Shown piece after piece: positions 2,185 to 18,096 of a stretch of DNA of 64,000 nt. The notes beneath the pieces were generated by a model. It did no database searches and was not told the origin of the DNA. It was given only the letters and a program-made list of their open reading frames with translations. The translations under genes were made by a program, and so were the position numbers. Origin of the DNA: Natronoarchaeum philippinense. Lineage in GTDB: Archaea; Halobacteriota; Halobacteria; Halobacteriales; Natronoarchaeaceae. Each line of letters begins with the position of its first letter. The stretch's first letter is position 1. The stretch lies in contig NZ_OBEJ01000002.1 of the NCBI RefSeq assembly GCF_900215575.1, positions 434,001 through 498,000 of the forward strand. Direction: 5' to 3'.

Positions 2185-2270
2185 GCCGAGGTAGCCTAGC
2201 CCGGCCAAGGCGGTTGCTTCGAGAGCAACTGTCCGTTCAGGACACAGGAGTTCAAATCTCCTCCTCGGCG
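2185..2270 (+). tRNA. tRNA-Ser (anticodon CGA)
   Basis: An 86-nt tRNA folds with acceptor strands GCCGAGG and CCTCGGC plus a G discriminator. It has a long variable arm as expected for serine, anticodon stem GTTGC/GCAAC with loop TTCGAGA (anticodon CGA), and T-arm AGGAG/CTCCT around TTCAAAT. No intron is seen, and CCA is not encoded. A T5 run follows directly at 2271-2275. The last 21 nt recur twice downstream. Confidence 0.97.
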
Positions 2271-2423
2271 TTTTTCACGCGAATAACACCGCGAGAGTCT
2301 TCCATGACTCTCGCACTCGTGAGCGTGTACACGCAAAACGTGGAGATTTGAAGTAGAGAAGTCGCAACCTGCGAGCGCAGCGAGCAGGTCCGTCTTCGCG
2401 TGGTTCAAATCTCCTCCTCGGCG
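2271..2423 (+). repeat. tRNA-Ser-linked structured element A (153 bp), ending in a tRNA 3'-end copy
   Basis: The unit begins directly after the tRNA and ends with an exact 21-nt copy (2403-2423) of the tRNA 3' end (2250-2270). Inside it are a perfect 9-bp-stem hairpin with a 6-nt loop (arms 2291-2299 and 2306-2314) and an 11-nt inverted copy of the T-arm region (GGAGATTTGAA, 2342-2352) that could pair with TTCAAATCTCC in the terminal copy. An ACCTGC/GCAGGT stem enclosing GAGCGCAGCGA lies between them. No open reading frame or integrase is present. Confidence 0.85.
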
Positions 2424-2586
2424 CTTCTCTCCGACGCAAACCCGCGAGAGCCTTCCATGACTCTCGCACAGCGCGTCGGAGTGGACGACTCACGTGGAGA
2501 TTTGAGCAGACGAGTCGCAGCCCGCGCAGGCGAGCGAAGCGAGCCGAGCAGGACCGTCTCGGCGCGTTCAAATCTCCTCCTCGGCG
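2424..2586 (+). repeat. tRNA-Ser-linked structured element B (163 bp), ending in a second tRNA 3'-end copy
   Basis: This is a diverged second unit of the same plan. It has the hairpin arms at 2444-2452 and 2459-2467 (one mismatch, same TTCCAT loop), the inverted T-arm copy GGAGATTTGA at 2496-2505, and a GCGAGCGAAGCGAGC motif. The identical 21-nt tRNA 3' end is at 2566-2586. A T5 run follows at 2587-2591, as it does after the real tRNA. Confidence 0.85.
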
Positions 2587-2634
2587 TTTTTGACGCGAAC
2601 CACACCGCGAGCGACCGCTGTGTCGCTCGCACGG
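2587..2634 (+). repeat. Truncated third element C
   Basis: The first about 48 bp of a third unit resemble element A (T5 run, ACGCGAA, ACACCGCGAG). They contain a perfect 9-bp-stem hairpin with different arm sequence (GCGAGCGAC at 2607-2615, GTCGCTCGC at 2622-2630). The rest of the unit is missing, and the next gene ends at 2637. Confidence 0.7.
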
Positions 2635-17890: not shown

Positions 17891-17964
17891 CCGCCCTTAG
17901 CTCAGACTGGTAGAGCAGTCGACTGTAGATCGACTTGTCCCCCGTTCAAATCGGGGAGGGCGGA
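17891..17964 (+). tRNA. tRNA-Tyr (anticodon GTA)
   Basis: A 74-nt tRNA has acceptor strands CCGCCCT/AGGGCGG with discriminator A, anticodon stem AGTCGA/TCGACT and loop CTGTAGA (anticodon GTA). The T-arm is CCCCG/CGGGG around TTCAAAT. There is no intron and no encoded CCA. The 3' 21 nt are repeated, with one extra A, at 18075-18096. Confidence 0.97.
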
Positions 17965-18096
17965 TACTTCTGATTCTGATCGATGAGCTCAGCGAATCGC
18001 TTCAGAATCAAATATCCTACCGACTCAATTTGAGCTTGTGAGTCGCGCACAGCGAAGCGAGCACGTCTCACAGTGTTCAAAATCGGGGAGGGCGGA
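17965..18096 (+). repeat. tRNA-Tyr-linked structured element (132 bp), ending in a tRNA 3'-end copy
   Basis: The unit starts directly after the tRNA and ends with a copy of its 3' end (18075-18096, one inserted A). It contains a 9-bp stem (TGATTCTGA at 17971-17979 with TCAGAATCA at 18002-18010) and an AATTTGA segment (18027-18033) complementary to the T-loop part of the terminal copy. An inner TGTGAG/CTCACA stem (18037-18042 and 18067-18072) encloses GCGAAGCGAGC. The plan is that of the tRNA-Ser elements, although the primary sequence differs. Confidence 0.75.

Follow-up and report, generated by a model that had tools for sequence, protein, structure and literature searches.

Many tRNA genes in almost all the salt-loving archaea searched are followed by gene-free cassettes, which look like a class-wide form of mobile or recombining DNA bound to tRNA genes. 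The cassettes, hereafter units, adjoin tRNA genes of most isoacceptor types and form tandem arrays. Both the direct copy of the tRNA 3' end and the inverted arm found in them fit the tRNA that they follow. The units are plausibly a family of non-coding DNA hairpin cassettes of the Halobacteria, entering and leaving at the tRNA 3' end, which would serve as direct repeat and att-like core; a probability of about 0.6 is given to this reading. The feature is real and general, and is probably unreported; no description of the family was found in the open-access literature searched, where absence is weak evidence.

The window, a stretch of 64,000 nucleotides from the genome of Natronoarchaeum philippinense, hosts one array and one single unit, all on the forward strand. 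The array is anchored to the tRNA-Ser(CGA) gene (2185-2270), recognised by ARAGORN and Rfam RF00005. The last 21 nt of this gene, from the T-loop to the discriminator base (2250-2270), have two further exact copies in the 64 kb, at 2403-2423 and 2566-2586, and no others, the chance expectation for an exact 21-mer match being about 1e-9 in 3 kb. The two copies close units of 153 and 163 bp, which share the plan H1, linker, H2. In unit 1, H1 (2271-2333) has a T-rich start, an outer stem CACGC/GCGTG and an inner stem-loop at 2291-2314, as indicated by folds and an inverted repeat. H2 (2342-2414) consists of the arm GGAGATTTGAA (2342-2352), a body (2353-2403) and the right arm TTCAAATCTCC (2404-2414). 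In unit 2, the H1 fold (2424-2480) is a stem TCCGACGC/GCGTCGGA enclosing an inner stem-loop, and H2 (2496-2577) is made of the arm GGAGATTTGA (2496-2505), a body and the right arm TCAAATCTCC. An H1-like remnant of a partial third unit (2587-2641) lies past the last copy, and a terminal H1 of this sort also closes arrays at other loci. A T5 run is found 3' of both tRNA-Ser and the second copy. The repeats, the common plan, the partial third copy and the T5 runs had all been reported by the first-pass annotation, and stand as described. It had overlooked the inverted T-arm copies, the unit behind tRNA-Tyr and the presence of units at about half of the host tRNA genes. An inverted copy of the T-arm, GGAGATTTGA(A), is found in each Ser unit, at 2342 and 2496. 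The 5' foot of H2 is thus an inverted copy of the tRNA T-loop/T-stem, the 3' foot continues into tRNA positions 54-73, exactly copied, and the tRNA 3' end copy becomes the right arm of a long hairpin. A coding reading was discarded, the ORFs listed over 2275-2643 being mechanical and overlapping on the two strands. A search of the 2000-2800 interval with Rfam cmscan returned only the tRNA above the cut-off, and no similarity to rtT.

The other tRNA gene of the window, tRNA-Tyr(GTA) (17891-17964), is followed by a single unit (17965-18096), composed of H1 and H2 (arm near 18026) and ended by a copy of the Tyr 3' end, TTCAAAATCGGGGAGGGCGGA, which carries a 1-nt insertion (18076-18096). A census of the host genome (last 19 nt from the T-loop, up to 4 mismatches, within 350 bp) found a copy of the own 3' end downstream of 23 out of 46 tRNA genes, and upstream of none of the 46 (Fisher p=6e-9); RF00005 identifies 45 tRNA genes in this genome, while the census used 46. 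Units are also borne by the Gly-CCC, two Asp and Gln tRNAs, but fall under the census threshold because the copy is interrupted or trimmed. Spacers range in the host genome from 44 to 208 nt, mostly about 80-130, and are thus too short for an integrase gene; that the units hold no gene, as first annotated, is confirmed.

A covariance model, R1, was built from 16 H2 sequences and includes 27 pairs, 12 of which have changed on both sides, a figure as high being reached in 0 out of 500 shuffles. E-values given by R1 are rough, because calibration was short. The H2 of Ser unit 1 is the top match in the host genome (E=4e-25), and the H2 of unit 2 is matched with E=1e-12. With two exceptions, all host-genome matches with E<=1e-3 are preceded by a tRNA or by the displaced 3' half of one; among them are L308, located behind Gln-CTG, L309, behind a tRNA-Val 3' half, and L311, behind a tRNA 3' end of Trp-type sequence. 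The exceptions, L307 (G000:C2:731304-731382) and L310 (G000:C7:67819-67897), are H2-like bodies with no neighbouring tRNA, each placed in a gap between protein genes. The two gaps have in common a sequence of about 30 bp ending with CCACCTCCGGTGNCGAGTGTGA, which adjoins the hairpin. In the L309 locus (G000:C1:911500-913200), the tRNA-Val 3' half and two units are located about 2.4 kb 3' of tRNA-Val(CAC), a gene that is itself devoid of a unit; an integrated element probably separates this gene from its array.

Against the possibility, raised by the first-pass annotation, that no other haloarchaeal tRNA gene carries such units, these were found at many. A DNA search of 59 related genomes detected the unit body at many places, and in 25 out of 25 retrieved loci a same-strand tRNA, of many isoacceptor types, is found directly upstream, its own 3' end closing the unit. 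In a scan of the class in which up to 15 matches per genome were scored, R1 (E<=0.01), a model of the kind the annotation had proposed, has hits in 288 of 292 Halobacteria genomes, across 75 of the 77 genera. A tRNA precedes each of the 30 top loci and each of the 125 distinct H2s. The tRNA lies inside the locus for 124 of the H2s; the remaining one (L083:2902) belongs to a neighbouring Asp gene, just past the locus edge. In a sample of the phylum, the 31 matching genomes are all Halobacteria, and none of the listed non-Halobacteria was matched by R1, 146 unmatched genomes being left unlisted. The four R1-negative Halobacteria were checked directly, and units were found at 0 out of 31 tRNAs. 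These genomes (G060, G088, G017 and G293) have no detectable units, and some of their relatives are unit-rich.

The copies track the local tRNA. Where tRNA-Ser has CTCACC in place of CTCCTC, the copies have it likewise (L012, L254, L302, L303). When placed by the loop part alone, the inverted arm matches the T-stem of its own tRNA at 3.38 out of 5 positions, and that of other tRNAs at 2.38 out of 5; the own-tRNA score lies beyond all of 10,000 permutations, the maximum of which was 2.74. The sequence AGTCGCAG..GGACCGTCT is common to H2 bodies from different tRNAs, genera and families.

Comparison of related genomes indicates gain or loss of entire units, for which the segment from T-loop to 3' end is the direct repeat, gain and loss not being distinguishable by direction. 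The host genome has an empty site at Val-GAC; the site is filled in the congener G001, where about 141 bp are inserted and the flank picks up right after the tRNA copy. At Ser-CGA, Haloarcula argentinensis and H. amylolytica differ by exactly one unit, and the flanks are collinear. In the filled Val-GAC and Ser-CGA sites the tRNA is intact and the direct repeat of its 3' end is found on both sides. Three units are present at Ser-GGA in G064 vs one in G065, one to four at Ser-CGA in Halorientalis species, and two identical 127-bp units are found in tandem at L143. Inversion and exchange of bodies between the arms also occur. The bodies at Ile-GAT of G001 and Ser-TGA of G287 (L049, L137) have the inverted orientation with respect to their tRNA, and the Ile-GAT body has the normal orientation in the host genome. 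The two tandem units of Halorientalis salina (L259) have H1, linker and arms in common, but different bodies. At Lys-TTT (L167) the body is a perfect palindrome, and the orthologous H1 stems of L145 and L146 differ by a compensatory change.

A second type of insert, about 50-70 bp long, formed by two hairpins and often ending with CTCACT, CTCAGT or CTCGGT, is found within copies of the tRNA 3' end, where it separates T-loop from T-stem, or within H1. It was observed at L096 (G000:C4, near 61.1 and 61.4 kb), L045, L067, L061, L057, L107, L108, L150 and L153, and resembles a small mobile repeat of a separate kind, with a preference for these sites. Units are also associated with odd tRNA-like genes of the type GGAAGGGTAGCTCAGTGG...GGTTCAAATCCCGCCCCTTCCG (L096:1501-1581, L044:559-644, L103:1997-2095), which ARAGORN either cannot assign or reads as intron-bearing Arg tRNAs.

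RNA helices tolerate G-U and not A-C pairs, an asymmetry that DNA hairpins do not have. Inner H2 stems contain 15 G-T and 9 A-C mismatches, whereas the acceptor and T stems of 110 tRNAs from the same loci contain 34 and 0, respectively (Fisher p=1.2e-4, an optimistic value because counts were made over related sequences). H2 stems hence do not conform to the pairing expected of RNA. Apical triloops are predicted by folding in 102 of the 125 H2s, and are mostly GNA closed by C-G, rather than the GNRA or UNCG loops of RNA. GNA triloops form a class of extraordinarily stable DNA mini-hairpins (PMC4686876). The mismatch pattern and the triloops together favour a DNA over an RNA hairpin, and suggest that H2 is of the former type. 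The first-pass annotation had also considered a functional tRNA-linked RNA. Read-through from the tRNA gene would yield a structured transcript, as proposed for the E. coli rtT RNA, whose mimic of the tRNA 3' end would act on tRNA processing or translation. The strong predicted structure with its covariation, the class-wide conservation and the annotation as ncRNA of rttR in the analogous E. coli array fit this idea. Besides the H2 stems and loops, inverted bodies weigh against it, as does the lack of units at about half of the tRNAs and in four whole genomes. A T5 run directly behind a gene would moreover stop archaeal transcription, and one is present right after tRNA-Ser. RNA function is accordingly possible beside the favoured reading of a DNA element, but quite unlikely.

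Passive repeat dynamics, possible too and rather unlikely, would dispense with a dedicated element: template switching at the T-arm and slippage at short repeats would make both inverted and direct tRNA copies, and correction of quasi-palindromes would keep stems perfect. The palindrome at Lys-TTT, the compensatory change in H1, the varying number of units between direct repeats and the lack of an identified recombinase all agree with a by-product of replication or repair. Body sequences common to different tRNAs, genera and families, however, would not be expected from independent slippage, and the units are strictly confined to one archaeal class among the genomes listed in the phylum sample. 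Haloarchaeal integrases use tRNA 3' ends (PMC8371274, PMC3119063), and the repeat from T-loop to 3' end resembles an att site; units might then be scars of decayed integrative elements, either SNJ2-type or other tyrosine-integrase proviruses or plasmids, and the Val-CAC array behind a displaced tRNA 3' half would suit such an origin. It is nonetheless improbable for units that are uniformly short, lack genes, have conserved folded bodies and occur as identical tandem copies, with no related sequence in viral and phage collections. Least credible is mobilisation by an IS200/IS605 (Y1) transposase, as for a PATE- or REPIN-like element, although each unit has two hairpins and PATEs are many in haloarchaea (PMC3119063). 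PATEs and elements of the IS605 type do not duplicate their target (PMC3119063), but every unit comes with a 20-bp target copy. Nor is the Y1 transposase supported as a necessary partner of the units: Y1_Tnp was not detected in the unit-rich genomes G003, G032 and G041, and is present in the unit-free G060, G088 and G017.

According to the preferred reading, that of tRNA-bound DNA hairpin cassettes, a unit comprises H1, linker, inverted T-arm of the host tRNA, hairpin body and direct copy of positions 54-73, and would be delimited by the tRNA 3' end (T54 to N73) as att-like direct repeat. The form recognised would be the H2 hairpin, either extruded or in single-stranded DNA. Entry and exit at the T-loop may be carried out by a putative trans-acting site-specific recombinase, with GTTCAAATC as core. 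Losses may alternatively occur by recombination between tRNA 3' end copies, for which direct repeats suffice, and arrays may grow and shrink by unequal exchange. Gain at a new tRNA would need a copying or recombining activity. A recombinase shifting a unit between different tRNAs would produce a chimeric acceptor stem, and thus would not explain the new tRNA specificity. Of the minimal mobile or amplified element with the tRNA 3' end as att core that had been proposed from the window, much has held, as empty and filled sites have exact boundaries, units recur at many tRNAs throughout the class and contain no gene, and bodies are found inverted or exchanged; transposition itself would follow from the comparison of genomes, and the recombinase is putative. 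Viral, phage and plasmid collections are nearly empty of units and give no indication of transfer between cells. Pattern scans of IMG/VR gave 15 matches, all due to chance and lacking tRNA or arms; phage records contained no units, and plasmid records only one, in a Natrinema megaplasmid, plus a marginal Streptomyces match (E=0.01). The element seems therefore to reside in chromosomes. The Natrinema thermotolerans plasmid locus (L239, CP031304.1:233884-236958) features a disrupted, tRNA-Glu-like (pseudo-) gene with its unit.

It may tentatively be imagined, though the odds are against it, that the units form an integron-like system addressed by tRNAs. A trans-acting enzyme working on folded, single-stranded H2 would insert, excise, invert and swap bodies at the T-loop, rewriting both arms for each tRNA, and a large proportion of tRNA 3' ends in the class would thereby be dynamic cassette arrays. 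Integron attC hairpins are folded sites of conserved structure and lax sequence, have the core inside the stem, and are ordered in arrays behind a fixed site. The units may be likened to them for the folded sites in array and the core in the stem. They differ because no integron integrase or cassette gene is found in them, each copy tracks the adjacent tRNA, and the core GTTCAAATC does not fit the integron GTTRRRY. PATEs, REPINs and IS200-IS605 ends are similarly small and non-coding, with subterminal hairpins, but the units have a tRNA-specific 20-bp copy and an inverted arm, and do not correlate with Y1 transposase genes. SNJ2 and other tyrosine-integrase elements share the attachment site at the tRNA 3' end, the direct repeats and the intact tRNA; the units lack an integrase gene, are only about 100-160 bp long and in tandem, and have an inverted arm matched to the tRNA. 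Casposons, or Cas1-type insertion at repeats, may be compared by analogy, for a target duplication at a tRNA 3' end. No known system comes closer than the E. coli tyrT repeat array, in which the same plan is seen at one locus. In the tyrT/tyrV array (rtT RNA, tpr), a tRNA gene is followed by tandem units, and a copy of its 3' end closes each of them. Re-reading tyrT revealed three direct copies of this end, spaced by 178 bp, and in each unit an inverted T-stem/acceptor segment, GGGGAAGGAT, able to form a long hairpin; the haloarchaeal family is thus alike in plan, not in sequence. The E. coli array is peculiar in being restricted to one tRNA locus, in its 178-bp units, in encoding tpr and in a repeat that begins in the T-stem. 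The haloarchaeal units are found class-wide at most tRNA types, their repeat begins at the T-loop, and the body sequence is unrelated.

What was a puzzle of a single locus, E. coli tyrT, becomes a general phenomenon that can be compared over hundreds of loci. The units provide cases in which recombination based on hairpins and addressed by tRNA sequence can be tested, and bear on how the 3' ends of tRNAs, where viruses and plasmids preferentially dock, get duplicated, displaced and kept intact.
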